Positions 12,793 to 27,449 of a DNA stretch of 37,381 nt are shown here, in pieces. The notes below the pieces were generated by a model, which was not told the DNA's origin, searched no databases, and saw only the letters and a list, made by a program, of their open reading frames with translations. The stretch's first letter is position 1, and the number at the start of each line of letters is the position of its first letter. The translations under genes and the position numbers were made by a program. Location: positions 1 through 37,381 of IMG/VR virus record IMGVR_UViG_3300038954_000404. One strand, given 5' to 3'. The DNA comes from a virus.

Positions 12793-13290
12793 TTAAAGTT
12801 CAATCTCTTCAATGGTATTGTTAACTATTTCCTCTACTTCTTCTCTTTTTAGGCGGACTTTCTTTCCAGGATTTCCTTGTTGTTTCAGTTTCTCTTTAAG
12901 CTGATATCTCATAAATACCTTAACGGTCAATTCTCGCTTTCTCTCTTTTGTCATTTCTTTGTAATCTTCATCAAGTACTTTTTTCATATACCGTCTCATT
13001 TTTCGGACGTCTCTTTTAATTCTCTTCTTTAAACCTTCAGCGACGTCAATATCACATTCACCTTTAAAATGATTTACGCACTCACTGCCGACTTTTATTT
13101 GCTCTTGGGTATTAGTGTTTAGAATTGTAAATGAATAAAGACATGGTTCGTGACCACAAAGTTCACATTTAAAAGTAGCAGGAATATAAGACATACCTAC
13201 AATTTTAAATTTGTCTTGAGTACTAGAACTAATATTTGCTAGACTGATTTGTATTTTATCCTCGTAAGCTTTAGAAATATAATTTTTCAT
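12793..13290 (-). CDS. Zinc-finger protein with 'VGSEC' motif, unknown
   Basis: About 165 residues from ATG 13290, chosen because AGGGGGAAAT precedes it. The first half has FKCELCGHEPCLYSF and then IKVGSECVNHF, a Cys cluster common in small phage and plasmid proteins whose role is unknown. The second half is a basic helical region (KKRIKRDVRKMRRYMKKVL) that could bind nucleic acid. Co-directional with the small-gene cluster 12498-14900. Confidence 0.72.
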   Translation of the reverse strand: MKNYISKAYEDKIQISLANISSSTQDKFKIVGMSYIPATFKCELCGHEPCLYSFTILNTNTQEQIKVGSECVNHFKGECDIDVAEGLKKRIKRDVRKMRRYMKKVLDEDYKEMTKERKRELTVKVFMRYQLKEKLKQQGNPGKKVRLKREEVEEIVNNTIEEIEL

Positions 13291-13319
13291 ATTTCCCCCT
13301 TGCTTACGATTATAGAGCA

Positions 13320-13706
13320 TTATCGATAATTTTCGTCATATATATGTTCTCGGAATGCAGGAGGGATTATTTCATCTGGAAAATCAATCTTATACTCTTT
13401 TTCTAGTCTTTCTTTTATTGTATCCCAAAATTCTCGCTCTGTCTTGTAATTTGGGAAAATCATAATTCCAGATAAGACTTGCAAGACCATAGTTGCCAGT
13501 CCCTCTTCTTCATGACTGTTTACAGCTAGTTTTACATTATCTAAGTTGTCTATAGAATAACTAAACATGCCTGCATTTACACAACTACCCGCATTTGTAA
13601 AATACACTCCATGTTTGCCAAGCCAGCTATACATCTCATTTTCACTAGCCCAACCATTTTTAATACAAACTTTGTTCCACTTTTCAAGCTTTTCTTTATC
13701 AGTCAT
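13320..13706 (-). CDS. Unknown protein in small-gene cluster
   Basis: 128 residues: helical N-terminus (DKEKLEKWNKVCIKNGW), a central hydrophobic stretch VLQVLSGIMIF that is too short to be sure of a membrane segment, and a helical C-terminus. Not recognised. TATAAT occurs just before the ATG but with no fitting -35 and no leader. Confidence 0.65.
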   Translation of the reverse strand: MTDKEKLEKWNKVCIKNGWASENEMYSWLGKHGVYFTNAGSCVNAGMFSYSIDNLDNVKLAVNSHEEEGLATMVLQVLSGIMIFPNYKTEREFWDTIKERLEKEYKIDFPDEIIPPAFREHIYDENYR

Positions 13707-14351: not shown

Positions 14352-14664
14352 CTATAGGCTTTTTAGTGAATGTAGGTTTTATGTAATAAATACCATCTGT
14401 TGATTTCTGCATAGGATATTCTTTGACTAACATAGATTTAGTTTCGAAATCTTTACAAATTTTAACTTTAACTTTCTTCTCACATTTTGCTTCATGCTCG
14501 CACTTTCCGCAATTCAGTCCAGACAGTAATAATTTAGTTAGATAATGATCGCCATCTCGATCATACTTTTCTTCTTTAGCTTCTGTTGGAGTGTTATTAA
14601 TAGTATCTGGATATGTTCGTCGCATTAGGGGAAAAAGAACATCAGCTGCGTCTTTCTTATTCAT
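14335..14664 (-). CDS. Cys-rich small protein, unknown
   Basis: About 109 residues from ATG 14664, which forms an ATGA overlap with the preceding stop; a GTG at 14682 is the alternative. The middle carries CGKCEHEAKCEKKVKVKICKDF, a shorter version of the Cys4 pattern in the two downstream genes. The C-terminus YYIKPTFTKKP is basic and ends with four acidic residues. Function unknown. Confidence 0.68.
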   Translation of the reverse strand: MNKKDAADVLFPLMRRTYPDTINNTPTEAKEEKYDRDGDHYLTKLLLSGLNCGKCEHEAKCEKKVKVKICKDFETKSMLVKEYPMQKSTDGIYYIKPTFTKKPIDDDNS

Positions 14665-14900
14665 AACTGTCTTACAAACCACCTTCCTAATCTAGTTAAT
14701 TTTGCTTCTGCTCGGTTAGTGTCATGATTAAAACCAAAAGTCACCATACCGGTAGAAGCATGTCGTTGTAAAATTTCCATTTCTTCTTCAGAAGTGATAA
14801 AAGCGCCACGTTTAAATTTACTTAATACTCTTTTATGTTGTAGCTCTTTAGTCTCGCCACGTAATGCTATCTTTATTTTCTTGCGTTTTATATTTCTCAT
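14661..14900 (-). CDS. Small basic protein directly after the structured leader
   Basis: 79 residues, very basic N-terminus (RNIKRKKIKIALRG), then GAFITSEEEMEILQRHAST and a C-terminus TRLGRWFVRQL. Not recognised. Its ATG is only 17 bases after the U tract of the terminator at 14918-14942, with no promoter space and only a weak ribosome site, so its expression must depend on read-through of the upstream structured RNA. Confidence 0.68.
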   Translation of the reverse strand: MRNIKRKKIKIALRGETKELQHKRVLSKFKRGAFITSEEEMEILQRHASTGMVTFGFNHDTNRAEAKLTRLGRWFVRQL

Positions 14901-14917
14901 TTTATTTAATTATGCAC

Positions 14918-14942
14918 AAAAAAGGGCTTACAAAGTAAGCCC
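14918..14942 (-). terminator. Strong intrinsic terminator ending the structured RNA
   Basis: On the minus strand GGGCTTAC (14942-14935), loop TTT, GTAAGCCC (14931-14924), then six T. The stem is 8 bp and perfect. It ends the gene-free stretch and sits just before the 14661-14900 gene, so it may act as an attenuator. Confidence 0.9.
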
Positions 14943-15285
14943 TCTATATCTTAGAAAGAATTAATCAGTCACCTCCTGTTGCGATAGCATTGCTTTCAGT
15001 CCAACGGACAGTGGCTTTGTCAAATTAAATCAATTTTGATAGGCCTCCCTTAAAAATTAGAAGATTAAGTAATGAACTTTATGGATAATAATCTTCTAGG
15101 GACAGGAAATGATCCTATCTTCAAAAGCTCTGTCTATCACTAACGAGGGCGCCCTAAGTAAAGTTAGCAATAAACTTCATTGCTTTTGCTTTACCTATAA
15201 GCTACCTCGAAGTTATTTTTCCTGTTCATTAATATTATCTTTTGCTATCTATAAGATTAATCACTAAAAGATAATGCTTTATCAT
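14918..15285 (-). ncRNA. Candidate structured non-coding RNA or attenuator leader
   Basis: A gene-free stretch of about 370 bases with dense minus-strand pairing. ACAGGAAA (15225-15218) pairs with TTTCCTGT (15109-15102) as a long-range stem. Inside it CGAGG (15209-15205) pairs with CCTCG (15148-15144), and GTAAAG with CTTTAC plus AGCAAT with ATTGCT form a nested hairpin (15194-15158). Next TAGAAGATTA (15098-15089) pairs perfectly with TAATCTTCTA (15067-15058). GTCC-GTT-GGAC (about 15009-14999) follows, then an AGGAGGTGA without a reading frame, and the terminator. I could not match it to tmRNA, RNase P, a known riboswitch or a group I intron. A short hairpin with TTTT (15283-15266) may end the upstream mRNA. 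Confidence 0.6.
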
Positions 15286-17259: not shown

Positions 17260-19356
17260 TCACTTCAAAAACAATATATACTCTTCATTTTTATAATTTT
17301 TGAAGTGACTCTTCTTATTCTTAAGAACTATTGACGTATTCGGATACTCACTATCAATTATTTCTTTTAACTCTCTGTTTACAACTAATACAACCTTTTT
17401 AGCTACATCTAACATATTTTCAATAGTCGGATATAAGAATTCACTACTCACATCTTTATATGGGATCATGTCTTTAGAATATTTTTCGCTATTGAAATAT
17501 GGAGGACATGTAAAAGCTAAGTCAAATCTCATATTAGGTTTATGATCTTCTGCTTTATCACAAAGTATTTCTCCTTCTAGCTTTATTTCTTCTAAAAGCT
17601 TCTTATTCTCTTTTACTGTCTCTTCATTATAATCAATTCCGTAGTAATATTTACCACCGCAAGCTTTTAGGCCTAAAGCTCGAGCACCAAAGCCGCAGCA
17701 TGGATCATAAACTGATTCGATATCACCTATTCTTTTATATATTTCACATGCTAAACTTGGAGAAAACCAACTTATAGCATAATTGCCCGAAATAAAACCT
17801 CTTAATATATTCTTTGCAGATATATCAAAAGTTTCGCGTTTTGCATTTAGTCCGACTCTGTATCTAATAATTTTTTCTAAAATAGCTTCATTTCCCCATG
17901 CGTCATATATGGATTCTTTTGATCCTTTTTTACCCTTCCAATAAGAAATAAATCTATTTTTTAAGAAATTATTACCACCAATAAGTGAAGTGTGTGGGTG
18001 CTCCCAGAATGTATCCCTATTTCTAGATTGGTCACCTCGTACCGATGACAACTCTTGCTCTAAATTACTTTCTTTATATTTTACAGTAAATTTGGGAAAA
18101 TATGCTCGTGTCCAGCGGACTAATAGGGGTACTATTTTCTCTAACTTCTTTTTATCTAACGATAATAGCCATTCTTTTCTTATAAAAATCTCATCCCACT
18201 CGAAGTTACGATTAGATATTTTATATTCGAAATCACCATTAATTATTTTACTCTCCCATATTCTATATAATTGATAACCCGCCCGAGTACACTTAATTTC
18301 TTTTTCTTTGTCAACAACTACTTTTTTTATTTGTTTTATTCTAGTTATTTCTACGCCATCGTTTTTATGCCAATAATCACCATCTACTTCTATAAGAGAA
18401 TCGTCACTTAATTTAAAATCAAATGACTTATTAAACAAACTATAATGCTGCTCATACGAGATATTTTTAGAGTCTAAATAATTAGCAAATAACATTTCTG
18501 GTTTGCTGGGGTACTGAACAGATGCGGGCCCTAATTTACCATATTTCCCTTGCTTTGATCCAATTTTAGAAAATGCTTTTACCCTACAATCTTCTGAACA
18601 ATATTTTTGCTTTTTTTGACATCTAGCAACTCTTACACTGAATTTATTTTTACATTCAGGGCACTCTCTATCTTCCCATTTGTCAATATAGACACCTCGC
18701 TCTCTAACAGATCGCTTCATTTTTTCTATTGAAGACTCGGAGTGTTTAAACCCACTATGAGATATAGACATTCTACAACTAGGACAAATATGATTAGTGT
18801 ACTTTTTGTCTATAAAATGTCCGACTCTAATTGTGTATTCTGTATTGCACCTTTCACACTTAAACATTATTTTTTCGTTCCTGGGTATCTTACGCTTCTT
18901 TATATATAGCTTATTGTCTTTAATGCTATAATCATTACTAGATAAATCATATATTGTCTTCTTATATAGTGGTAAACTAGCAACATATTCTTTTATTTCT
19001 TCATCATTCATTTTAAATTTATAGCATTCATTTTTTTCGTATTTATCTAGTATGTTCATTACACTAGTTTTAGAAAGACCCACTAATTCCCCTATCTTAG
19101 AAAGTGATAAAGACTCTTTCTTCGCTAGAATAACTCTATCTACTTCTTGCGGCTCTCGTATATTCCAGCAAAATTTACATATAGGTTGAAAATACTTTTC
19201 TCTTATCGAAGGGTAATTATAAATACTTTTTTTATTACAACGTTTACAAATAAAAGTGACTTTATCTCTTTTAACTAACCTCTTAAACTCGACTACTCCA
19301 AATATCTCTTGTCTTTCATTTTTATAGACTTCTATATCTTCTAATTTTACTAACAA
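17260..19356 (-). CDS. Zinc-ribbon / Vsr-like homing endonuclease fused to a DNA methyltransferase
   Basis: 698 residues in several modules. Zinc ribbon CKRC (37-40) with CKFC (60-63); helix-turn-helix near 82-105 (LSKIGELVGLSKTSVMNIL); second ribbon CERC (167) with CPSC (191); a NUMOD3-like GFKHSESSIEKMKRS (202-216); third ribbon CPEC (232) with CSEDC (253). Then a Vsr/EDxHD-type nuclease: E287, D313 in FDFKL, IEVDGDYWH (322-330) and GYQLYRIWESKI (360-371). Residues about 530-698 are a methyltransferase: DPCCGFGARALG (551-562) as SAM motif I, and TCPPYF (616-621) as the catalytic motif of amino-methylating enzymes. Start is TTG 19356 with GGAG before it; a 12-base palindrome lies at 19368-19379. 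It follows the gp23 terminator, the kind of site where free-standing homing endonucleases insert. Confidence 0.85.
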   Translation of the reverse strand: MLVKLEDIEVYKNERQEIFGVVEFKRLVKRDKVTFICKRCNKKSIYNYPSIREKYFQPICKFCWNIREPQEVDRVILAKKESLSLSKIGELVGLSKTSVMNILDKYEKNECYKFKMNDEEIKEYVASLPLYKKTIYDLSSNDYSIKDNKLYIKKRKIPRNEKIMFKCERCNTEYTIRVGHFIDKKYTNHICPSCRMSISHSGFKHSESSIEKMKRSVRERGVYIDKWEDRECPECKNKFSVRVARCQKKQKYCSEDCRVKAFSKIGSKQGKYGKLGPASVQYPSKPEMLFANYLDSKNISYEQHYSLFNKSFDFKLSDDSLIEVDGDYWHKNDGVEITRIKQIKKVVVDKEKEIKCTRAGYQLYRIWESKIINGDFEYKISNRNFEWDEIFIRKEWLLSLDKKKLEKIVPLLVRWTRAYFPKFTVKYKESNLEQELSSVRGDQSRNRDTFWEHPHTSLIGGNNFLKNRFISYWKGKKGSKESIYDAWGNEAILEKIIRYRVGLNAKRETFDISAKNILRGFISGNYAISWFSPSLACEIYKRIGDIESVYDPCCGFGARALGLKACGGKYYYGIDYNEETVKENKKLLEEIKLEGEILCDKAEDHKPNMRFDLAFTCPPYFNSEKYSKDMIPYKDVSSEFLYPTIENMLDVAKKVVLVVNRELKEIIDSEYPNTSIVLKNKKSHFKNYKNEEYILFLK

Positions 19357-24365: not shown

Positions 24366-27300
24366 TTAATCTTTCAAGACTTTATTTTTTTTGCGTCTCC
24401 GGATGAGACCTTTTAATTCGCCTTCTTTAAAAAGCATATGGAAACTATTTTCATATAGCTTACGCTTTTTACTTTTAAAATTATCTTTAGTTATCTGCGC
24501 ATTTTCTCTGTATTCTTTCACAAATTTTATCAACGATCGTATGTCGTCTTCATTTTCTACTAAAAACTCTTTACCAGCAACATTTAATATCTTACTAGCT
24601 ACTTCCATCGGAGCTCCCCCCTCTCCACCTGCAGCAGCAGCTTCTTCGCCTCCACCAACTTCAGGAGTTTCTCCTCCTCCAGCAGCAGCTTCTTCACCTC
24701 CACCAACTTCAGGAGTTTCTTCACCACCTGCAGCAGCTTCTTCACCACCGCCACCTACTTCTGGAGCAGCAGGAGTTTCTCCACCACCAGCTACACCAGC
24801 TTCAGTTGGCTGAGCTTGTTGTTGCATCATCTCTAAACGTTTAGCATCTTCTTGCTTTTCTATCATTTCTGCTTGTTGCATTATCTTTAAATTAGATATT
24901 TCTTGATCATTAAAATTGTTTATATGCTTATATAACCATTCCCTAGGGAAATAAGGCTTGCCATTATCATCAACTAATTGCAATGCTGTCTGTATTACGT
25001 TTAATTTTTGCGTCATGGCTTCTAACTCTTGCATCTCATAAATCTTAGATGGCGGAGTTAATTTTATTTGAAAATTATACATATCTTCTAAAGAGAATCT
25101 CTTAAATGCTAATTCCACTATTGCTAATTTCTCTAGACCTTTTATAACCATTTTCTGTATTCTTTCTATAGTTTTAGCAAATCTTACATCCATTGCTGAT
25201 AATGAAGTCTTAGCAACGTCTCCTGTCATCTCTCCAGTTAAATACGACATCGGTATTCTCATCGTCCTAAGGATCTTCTCTTTAAAGTACCTAACATCAT
25301 CTATCTCACCTAATTGTTGCCCTCCTGGCAAATTATCAATAGATACTCCAGTGCCATCCGGTCTCGTTGGTACAAAGAAATCATCGTTTATACTGTTTTT
25401 AATAACGATTCCCGATGAAGTAAAATTATGGTATTTTGCTACTGTGATACAACCGGTGTCTTCTTTTTGGTCGAGCCAAACCACTTTATCAACCTTGTGG
25501 TTCAAGATGTTCTCTTCTAACAGTCTATTTCTCACCATTGTATAACTAGCTTCAAAGCAATCTGCTATTTCTTGTATTGATTTGTCTGCTCTAAGTTTTA
25601 GTAAATCCTCTCGTGGCATTAGTGTTTCTTTTATGAATCTTGAAATAGAATCACAACCTAAATGTTTTTTAAGAGTCGGCCATGATACATTTAATATTTT
25701 TTGAAGGTCTACTGAATTTTTTATTTTATTCTTCTTTATTATCTCTTTTACTTTTCTAGGTGTTATATAATCTTTTTTCAAATAATTAAATCTATTTTTA
25801 TTTGGTAGCATATATTTTTTGCAAAACTCTTTTTTAGTAAGGCCATGCAATTTTATTCTAGAATTTATTACCCTAATAGAGCAACCAAAATGATCACAAA
25901 TATCGTCAAAAGACCTTGCATTACTCCTAGACCATTCTGCTATTTCATTAAAGGTTATATTCTTCCACCTTCCATTATTTGACCCTAATAGCTTAGAATA
26001 ATCTTTAGTGGAATTATTGTGGATTTTACAGTGTTCATCTCTTGTGCATTCTAACAAATTATCTGGTCTATTATTCTTTTTGTTATAATCTATATGATGC
26101 ACTACATTTTCTTTTGGTATATCTACAAAGATTGATTCAGCTACAACTCTATGGACGTATCTATATCTATTTTCTTTCGGGTTATACACTAAATGATATC
26201 CATCACTTTTGTTACCCAATTTTTTATTAGATTCTTTAGTATAATGAGGCATTAAGGAATCACCTTTCTCTAGATACTGAGCTTCTTTATATTCACCATT
26301 GCGTAATAAAAATTTATGATCTGGTGTACATCTAATAGATTTTCCATTATCAATATATACTTCTACTAGTTGAGCATTCTTTCTAGTCGGTCCAGCCCAT
26401 TCGATTTTACCAGGAACTATTTTATTGCCATTTTCTCTATCGATAGAATAAGTCCAATTTTCTTTTCCTTCGTTATATTCTTTTATTAGAGTAGAAAGTG
26501 TTTCTGTTCTTCCATCTAATAAGTCGATAGGAGTATCAAATGCTAGACAGAGTGGGTTTGCTTTGTAATTAATCTCCCCAGACGTCGGATCGACCCATGG
26601 CGTTTTCCTATACTTCTGCTTGAAGTCCTCGACTCGGTTCATAGCATCTCTGTAGGGAAGGTTACCGACTGGGATTCTGAATATTCTACGTTCTGGTGCT
26701 CTAGCTATTCTATAGATCAACATTGCGTCTTCGATTAGTTTCATTTGTTTAAAAGCTAATCTTCCCGATTCCAAGACACTTTTACCATATGGTTCGAATT
26801 CTTTATCATCTAATTTGAAATGAATTATTTGCCATGGGTTTAATACATATTCTTCGCCTTGACCGCTTGTAGTGTAACTAACTCCAGTATCTTCTGGTGC
26901 TATTCTAACCAAGAAAGAAATTAAATTACCGTCTTGTTCTTGTCTAGCCACATATTGAGGTGGTAACCAGCGAATATATTTAATTTTTCTCGGATTTTTA
27001 TAACTGTCTGGTATGACTTCGTAAAAAGCTTCTCCATATTTGCAAGTGTTATAAACAATGTGCCACAAGTTAGCATTCATATCTAGAGAATGAAACCACA
27101 TATCTTCTAAAGTTTCAGTTACATCTTGATTCTCAGCTTCAGTAGTAACAACATGATCGTACTCGTTATATAATGAGCTGTCATCTGCATAAAGCTCTAA
27201 GCCAGCATTCAATTCAGGTATATAACACATCTGTTCGTATTCTCTGTATCTTTGGATACGAGCTTGGTCTATAGAAGTGAAGCCTTCGAGTGAAGTTTTA

Positions 27301-27449
27301 TAATTCCCAAAAGCTGTGACTACAGTGTCGTCTTTGCTAGTCTCGCCTTTAATTAAATCATTTACAGAAGTGATTTTTATTTTGTTAAAATATTTTTGTA
27401 TAGTTTCTGCTTTCTTTTCTACATCTTTATCTCGTTTATCCATTTTCAC
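24366..27449 (-). CDS. 20: Portal vertex protein gp20, interrupted by an intein
   Basis: 1027 residues before splicing and 642 after; T4 gp20 is 524. Portal parts are residues 1-300 (REYEQMCYIPELNAGLELYADDSSLYNE; IRWLPPQYVARQ; AMLIYRIARAPERRIFRIPVGNLP) and 686 onwards (INDDFFVPTRPDGTGVSIDNLPGGQQLGEIDDVRYF; RIPMSYLTGEM; LEAMTQKLNVIQTAL). The insertion at 301-685 is an intein, listed separately. The C-terminus has a Gly/Glu/Ala/Pro repeat tract (24618-24790) and a charged tail. The portal dodecamer occupies one capsid vertex, nucleates head assembly and is the DNA entry channel for gp17. It overlaps the upstream nuclease gene by 14 bases. Confidence 0.95.
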   Translation of the reverse strand: MKMDKRDKDVEKKAETIQKYFNKIKITSVNDLIKGETSKDDTVVTAFGNYKTSLEGFTSIDQARIQRYREYEQMCYIPELNAGLELYADDSSLYNEYDHVVTTEAENQDVTETLEDMWFHSLDMNANLWHIVYNTCKYGEAFYEVIPDSYKNPRKIKYIRWLPPQYVARQEQDGNLISFLVRIAPEDTGVSYTTSGQGEEYVLNPWQIIHFKLDDKEFEPYGKSVLESGRLAFKQMKLIEDAMLIYRIARAPERRIFRIPVGNLPYRDAMNRVEDFKQKYRKTPWVDPTSGEINYKANPLCLAFDTPIDLLDGRTETLSTLIKEYNEGKENWTYSIDRENGNKIVPGKIEWAGPTRKNAQLVEVYIDNGKSIRCTPDHKFLLRNGEYKEAQYLEKGDSLMPHYTKESNKKLGNKSDGYHLVYNPKENRYRYVHRVVAESIFVDIPKENVVHHIDYNKKNNRPDNLLECTRDEHCKIHNNSTKDYSKLLGSNNGRWKNITFNEIAEWSRSNARSFDDICDHFGCSIRVINSRIKLHGLTKKEFCKKYMLPNKNRFNYLKKDYITPRKVKEIIKKNKIKNSVDLQKILNVSWPTLKKHLGCDSISRFIKETLMPREDLLKLRADKSIQEIADCFEASYTMVRNRLLEENILNHKVDKVVWLDQKEDTGCITVAKYHNFTSSGIVIKNSINDDFFVPTRPDGTGVSIDNLPGGQQLGEIDDVRYFKEKILRTMRIPMSYLTGEMTGDVAKTSLSAMDVRFAKTIERIQKMVIKGLEKLAIVELAFKRFSLEDMYNFQIKLTPPSKIYEMQELEAMTQKLNVIQTALQLVDDNGKPYFPREWLYKHINNFNDQEISNLKIMQQAEMIEKQEDAKRLEMMQQQAQPTEAGVAGGGETPAAPEVGGGGEEAAAGGEETPEVGGGEEAAAGGGETPEVGGGEEAAAAGGEGGAPMEVASKILNVAGKEFLVENEDDIRSLIKFVKEYRENAQITKDNFKSKKRKLYENSFHMLFKEGELKGLIRRRKKNKVLKD
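24618..24790 (-). repeat. Low-complexity coding repeat in the portal C-terminal tail
   Basis: Three imperfect copies of a unit that encodes GGEETPEVGGGEEAAA, about 16-17 residues. The DNA copies are also very similar (CCACCAACTTCAGGAGTTTC recurs), and are GC-richer than their surroundings. Number of copies is likely to vary between relatives by slippage or recombination. Flexible linker in the protein. Confidence 0.85.
25395..26549 (-). mobile_element. Intein with HNH homing endonuclease in the portal gene
   Basis: Residues 301-685 of the frame, 385 residues. It begins Cys301 in CLAFDTPIDLLDGRTETL (block A), then IRCTPDHKFLL with TPDH of block B at 375-378. An HNH endonuclease follows (VVHHIDYNKKNNRPDNLLECTRDEHCKIH, about 449-477). 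Three helix-turn-helix-like segments come next (about 500-535, 563-598 and 617-645). The C-terminal block is DTGCITVAKYHNF ... GIVIKN, then Ser686 as the +1 nucleophile. The last two residues are Lys-Asn rather than His-Asn. Removing it joins NPL to SINDDFF, restoring a continuous portal fold. It sits in the most conserved part of gp20, as expected for a homing element. Confidence 0.92.

Follow-up and report, generated by a model that had tools for sequence, protein, structure and literature searches.

Transfer RNA (tRNA) mimicry is, to our knowledge, known from very few classes of bacterial RNA (transfer-messenger RNA, or tmRNA, and the Y RNAs). We analysed a candidate non-coding RNA (ncRNA) with a tRNA-like core on the minus strand, at 14918-15285, of a 37-kb virus contig (IMG/VR record IMGVR_UViG_3300038954_000404; "the window" below means this whole contig of 37,381 nucleotides). 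Its nearest described kinds are YrlA and tmRNA, together with GOLLD and ROOL as structured phage RNAs, and each of them fails defining features that we tested.

YrlA mimics the D, T and acceptor arms of a tRNA and carries this module on a helix that leads into a second domain (PMC8394870). The phage RNA has the same plan, but YrlA is 90–150 nucleotides (nt) long and binds the Rsr/Ro60 protein through its basal stem, whereas the phage RNA is ~350 nt long and has kept and extended the anticodon stem. In the contigs that bear the RNA, four in number, a search up to E 10 found no match to YrlA (RF02553), and no TROVE (Ro60/Rsr) protein was seen among 12 records of related phages that are possibly incomplete. 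tmRNA resembles the phage RNA in its total length and in a tRNA-like fold whose anticodon arm has turned into a long helix. However, the phage RNA lacks a terminal CCA acceptor and a conserved open reading frame (ORF) for a tag, and its D arm is a paired stem; ARAGORN in tmRNA mode called none even at a 50% threshold, and no Rfam tmRNA match was found.

GOLLD and ROOL are structured phage RNAs of no known function, often lie near tRNA genes and form kissing loops between copies (PMC12286853). GOLLD exceeds 800 nt, whereas the phage RNA has a tRNA-like core and no adjoining tRNA island in the window; neither family gave an Rfam match in the window or in the related contigs L006, L015 and L014. 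A tRNA-like fold inside a longer non-coding transcript is also seen in mascRNA and menRNA (of MALAT1 and MEN beta), but these are eukaryotic and are freed by ribonuclease P (RNase P). Overall, no Rfam family reached its gathering score in the window, and the sole weak match in the stretch (E 7) fell on the terminator hairpin. A literature search, with most subscription journals outside its reach, returned no description of a phage RNA of this kind. The group I intron model RF00028 matched the gp23 gene of L015, not the RNA; this intron (L015:8207-8478, 84 bits, E 2e-20) splits the capsid gene after about codon 76.

A conserved RNA family downstream of gp23

Comparison of the copies at the sequence level shows that this RNA belongs to a conserved family, as argued by its homologues, compensatory pairing, tRNA register and terminator and by neighbour genes that change from phage to phage. 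Using the capsid protein as bait, we collected 14 contigs at 66–80% identity, besides one identical copy and two remote ones. RNA copies were found at L006 7260-7660 (~62% identity, E 4e-11), at L015 10476-10870 (~62% identity, E 1e-7) and, more distantly, at L014 12966-13345 (E 2e-6), each aligned over its length, each downstream of gp23 and each closed by a terminator. L006 and L015 share 87% identity in the core. In the three relatives, the 5′ end of the RNA carries GATAAAAAAAGATC, which occurs once per contig and nowhere else among the collected loci. The immediate surroundings vary: L006 and L015 have an upstream gene in common while the window and L014 have others, the gene immediately downstream differs in all four phages (it is an HSP20-family gene in L014), and no homologue of the window's downstream gene, 14661-14900, lies next to the RNA in L006, L015 or L014. 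Thus, the element is not the leader of one particular gene.

Other searches added no copies. Apart from a spurious match, L003, flanking proteins used as bait recovered nothing but the identical contig IMGVR 3300037796_000337. Weak matches in L008, L009 and L013 were terminators only, with GCATA following those of L008 and L009. When all four RNAs served as nucleotide queries against 50,697 phage records, only chance matches or terminators came back, and a scan of the contigs for a G+C-rich pattern gave chance matches only. There are four copies in all, every one from metagenome assemblies.

MAFFT alignments put the core of the window's RNA out of register, and RNAalifold produced poor structures from them. 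We therefore derived the structure stem by stem and then tested it with a model in whose making the window had no part. A covariance model built from L006, L015 and L014 found the held-out window with 45 bits (E 2e-8) in ~1 Mb. When L006 and L015 alone were compared, 6 of 31 pairs had changed on both sides yet remained paired, versus 0–1 when the partners were slid by 1–3 bases. In the four-copy model alignment, both-side changes were present in 15 of 35 pairs (1–6 when slid) and 91.5% of the cells were paired (36–49% when slid; 0 of 500 shuffles). Since the structure guided the fitting of this last alignment, more weight falls on the test with the held-out window and on that of fixed register.

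The "anticodon stem" P4 keeps its five pairs in a fixed register in all four copies with four different sequences (AAAGC/GCUUU, GUAAC/GUUAC, AUGAC/GUCAU and GCGAC/GUCGC), and four of the five pairs have changed on both sides. The long-range helix P2 has counterparts in L006 (AGAAC/GUUCU), L015 (AAGGAAC/GUUUCUU) and L014 (AGAAUUA/UAAUUCU); taken by itself, it is not significant against shuffles.

No ORF of at least 60 residues lies within 14918-15285, and the window RNA has neither a reading frame in common with its relatives nor a match to a protein family. We rejected as genes a 92-residue ORF that spans the L014 RNA, which is absent from the other copies, and a short MKFVI frame after the first GGAGG of L006 and L015, which the others lack. 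The minus strand folds at −97.6 kcal/mol (z −4.1), an energy as low as which occurred in none of 100 shuffles. The plus strand also has a z of −4.2, and removing the terminator leaves a z of only about −2.8. Folding energy alone thus proves neither the case for a structured RNA nor its strand; both are argued from the comparative evidence.

A preliminary description of this stretch had delimited it correctly, down to the gene start 17 bases past the U tract, and had proposed a structured phage ncRNA of no known class with no credible gene in it. This proposal fits the homologues, the covariation, the terminator and the lack of an Rfam match. It named covariation, an Rfam scan and a degraded gene in relatives as checks; the homologues covary, the scan gave no family and no degraded gene was found, so that the proposal was not refuted. 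Its long-range 8-bp stem is P2, which is perfect and recurs in the relatives. Its 10-bp perfect stem turned out to exist twice: P1 is conserved, whereas the second (15058-15067/15089-15098) has no counterpart in the relatives and clashes with the conserved folding. The six U of its terminator were confirmed, but the stem has nine perfect base pairs (bp) rather than eight. The tRNA-like core was missing from that description.

The tRNA-like core and its surrounding domains

The features of the RNA are collected in the table below.

Features of the RNA in the window (RNA sequences are written 5′ to 3′; coordinates are those of the window)
Feature	Position	Strand	Details
Whole ncRNA	14918..15285	-	5′ end inferred; 3′ end is the terminator U tract
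P1, 5′ hairpin	15234..15275	-	15275-15266 with 15243-15234, perfect 10 bp; AUCUU...AAGAU counterpart in relatives
P2, long-range closing helix	15070..15231	-	15231-15224 with 15077-15070, perfect 8 bp, UAAUGAAC/GUUCAUUA
P3, acceptor-like helix, runs on outward	15093..15212	-	15212-15205 with 15100-15093; compensatory changes in P3 and P3b
D arm	15188..15202	-	GCUU-AUAGGUA-AAGC with G18-G19, preceded by U8-A9; near-invariant in all four copies, in tRNA register
P4, "anticodon stem" 27-31/39-43	15124..15186	-	AAAGC (15186-15182) with GCUUU (15128-15124)
Arm replacing the anticodon loop, 53 nt	15129..15181	-	Holds P5, 15175-15163 with 15144-15132
Palindrome AGGGCGCCCU, apical loop of P5	15146..15155	-	UGGAGCUCCA in L014; GGGCGCCU in L006 and L015
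T arm	15102..15118	-	AUAGG-AUCAUUU-CCUGU, 7-nt loop with U55 and C56; stem covaries
First Shine-Dalgarno-like motif, GGGAGG	15044..15049	-	GGAGG in the corresponding position of every copy
P9 hairpin, GUCC-GUU-GGAC	14999..15009	-	CCAUC-GUU-GAUGG (L006), CCGUC-GUU-GACGG (L015); not found in L014
Second Shine-Dalgarno-like motif, ACAGGAGGUGA	14969..14979	-	Able to form 11 bp with the T arm
Intrinsic terminator, U6	14918..14944	-	Stem 14923-14931/14935-14943, 9 perfect bp; every copy has a terminator at this place

tRNA numbering fits all four RNAs, with U8-A9, A14, G18-G19, A21, one base at position 26 and a variable loop of five bases. The D stem is GCUU/AAGC throughout, but with AAGU in L015. 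The T loop AUCAUUY is invariant and keeps both U55 and C56; its stem has one A-C mismatch in L014 and lacks the outermost pair in L006. In place of the anticodon loop stands an arm of 37–53 nt, with neither a U33-type 7-nt loop nor a conserved anticodon. The acceptor helix extends on both strands past a one-base joint, leaving no CCA and no free 3′ end.

At default settings, ARAGORN found neither a tRNA nor a tmRNA. After the insert had been trimmed to 7 nt of its own sequence, ARAGORN called all four copies at 80% of its threshold, versus 2 of 1000 shuffles. The covariance model of the RNA also matched ordinary phage tRNAs, six of them in loci picked by a D-arm-like motif. With filters off, the model was also run on 61 kb around tRNAs in two related phages, a set chosen without that motif, and its four best distinct matches were all tRNAs. 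Its top match in the distant relative G011 is tRNA-Thr(GGT), which shares with L006 an identical 20-nt stretch of the D arm, GUAGCUUAAUAGGUAAAGCA. The tRNA-Thr genes of related phages also share the stem lengths and the variable loop of the RNA; unlike it, they have an ordinary anticodon loop, a canonical T loop and a free acceptor end. The tRNA-like core is probably derived from a phage tRNA. The RNA itself is not a tRNA: an arm replaces the anticodon loop, the acceptor runs on, CCA is missing and tRNA models give no significant match.

P5, within the insert arm, is a 13-bp helix in the window, a length reached in 2 of 1000 shuffles. The interior of its apical palindrome changes in step, from GCGC to AGCU, with just two states among the four copies. 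A 2025 Nature paper on OLE, ROOL and GOLLD (PMC12286853) took stepwise changes of this kind to argue that copies of OLE and of GOLLD join through kissing loops. By analogy, the palindrome is a possible site of kissing-loop dimerisation, for which the change, with only two states, is a hint. The 3′ half of each copy has two GGAGG-type motifs with no conserved ORF after them. The 11-bp pairing between the T arm and ACAGGAGGUGA was seen in 5 of 1000 shuffles of the window RNA; it is weaker in L006 and L014. Because this pairing is strong in the window only and absent from L015, we treat it as tentative.

Genomic context

The source virus is an uncultured T4-like myovirus whose contig has genes for the gp23 capsid protein, portal, protease and tail sheath. 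The RNA lies on the same strand as gp23 and downstream of it, amid small genes that belong to no family. The ATG of the gene 14661-14900 is at 14900.

In the window (14900-14923) and at L188:15501, L189:12688, L190:10730, L191:12212 and L195:11560, GCATA and AT-rich sequence, often including TTTAA, stand on the 3′ side of terminators. This module is also present in relatives without the RNA and is thus a general end of transcription units, perhaps a terminator-promoter module.

Three other genes of the contig deserve mention. The portal gene (24366-27449, minus strand) has an in-frame insert of ~383 residues (303-685) that matches an HNH endonuclease and that is exactly what relatives such as L007 lack; it is probably an intein. 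Downstream of gp23, at 17260-19356 (minus strand), a protein of 698 residues joins HNH-endonuclease-like and methyltransferase-like parts, and related forms, mostly shorter, are found downstream of gp23 in L006, L008, L010, L012 and L019. A cysteine-containing protein of 175 residues (12793-13320, minus strand; F-K-C-E-L-C-x-H) has 46–64% identity in eight relatives and no Pfam or PHROG match.

Proposed role and competing explanations

We consider it fairly likely that the element is a trans-acting, tRNA-mimicking phage ncRNA of ~350 nt with its own terminator. As read from the sequence, the RNA would be transcribed on the strand of the late structural genes and terminated independently. Continuous with the remainder of the RNA, its acceptor helix would offer no free CCA end, and no decoding would take place. 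The RNA could instead present a tRNA elbow in trans to a tRNA-handling host factor, candidates being the ribosome, RNase P, a tRNA-modifying enzyme, polynucleotide phosphorylase or a Ro60-like protein. The outer domains, the two Shine-Dalgarno-like motifs and the apical palindrome would then set the target or dimerisation. A more specific version, which we regard as speculative and rather doubtful, is a ribosome-targeting RNA effector: with its elbow and extended Shine-Dalgarno-like motifs (AGGAGGUGA), the RNA would dock on ribosomes or 30S subunits of the host, perhaps dimerised through kissing loops, and would redirect or block translation late in infection, with the T-arm/motif pairing switching between two states.

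Several observations weigh against a tRNA mimic. The T loop AUCAUUY is non-canonical. An ordinary tRNA model run on the window with filters off scored only 11.8 bits (E 0.6) and misplaced the T arm, and the Rfam tRNA model RF00005 does not match the RNA. The minimum-energy and conserved folds are ~10 kcal/mol apart in the window, versus just 1.3 kcal/mol in L006 and L015. Finally, the family has only four members: a covariance-model search of the other related records, many of them fragmentary, gave no homologue.

Of the rivals, we ranked a cis-acting RNase P processing site highest, then a tether of the Y-RNA kind, then attenuation and last the decay of a tRNA gene. tRNA-like folds are in general substrates of RNase P, and this enzyme or a similar one might cut the fold and part the late transcript from its sequel, leaving the RNA no role in trans. 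The RNA begins within or right after the upstream gene and may thus be co-transcribed with it, and both flanking genes vary, as they would for a punctuation element. The terminator already ends the transcript, however; the conserved P1, P2, P5 and 3′ motifs exceed the needs of a cleavage site, and a one-base joint between T stem and acceptor with no free end makes a poor tRNA mimic for cleavage. We judge such a processing site unlikely. A phage version of YrlA, tethering the host Ro60/Rsr protein to an RNA-processing enzyme, would fit the shared architecture, in which flanking strands form a helix that carries a tRNA-like module. In some bacteria RtcB neighbours Rsr and the Y RNAs, and the L014 contig encodes an RtcB (G002:83244-84401). 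Ro60-type proteins can also be encoded by jumbo phages (PMC7824862). The absence of YrlA matches from the four bearing contigs and of TROVE proteins from the 12 related, possibly incomplete records, a length two to three times that of YrlA and the retention of an anticodon stem with a long arm nevertheless make a Y RNA quite unlikely. Separately, a second RtcB RNA ligase gene was found at G009:102445-103602; G009 and G011 also hold long tRNA arrays.

The preliminary description had offered, as its other option, a leader that decides read-through into 14661-14900. The position of the terminator, 17 bases ahead of the start codon, and the existence of alternative pairings, including the 11 bp that the T arm can form with the second Shine-Dalgarno-like motif in the window, would suit such an attenuator. 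But none of the other three phages keeps that gene next to the RNA, the neighbours differ in all four, and the terminator-GCATA module marks unit ends in relatives without the RNA as well; the leader proposal was thus not supported, and we consider attenuation very unlikely. Phages often gain and lose tRNAs, and the D arm is close to those of phage tRNAs, so that a decaying tRNA gene with an insertion might have been retained by chance. Compensatory changes in P3, P4, the T stem and the insert arm, and a T loop that is invariant in four diverged copies, speak instead for selection on the present shape and render decay the most improbable of these explanations.

If the RNA is indeed a trans-acting tRNA mimic, building a tRNA body into a larger phage ncRNA and exchanging its anticodon loop for a structured arm would put the tRNA fold to a new use. 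The covariance model built from the copies is a usable search model. Standard tRNA finders and Rfam overlook such an RNA, and more of them may therefore hide in the intergenic stretches of phages.
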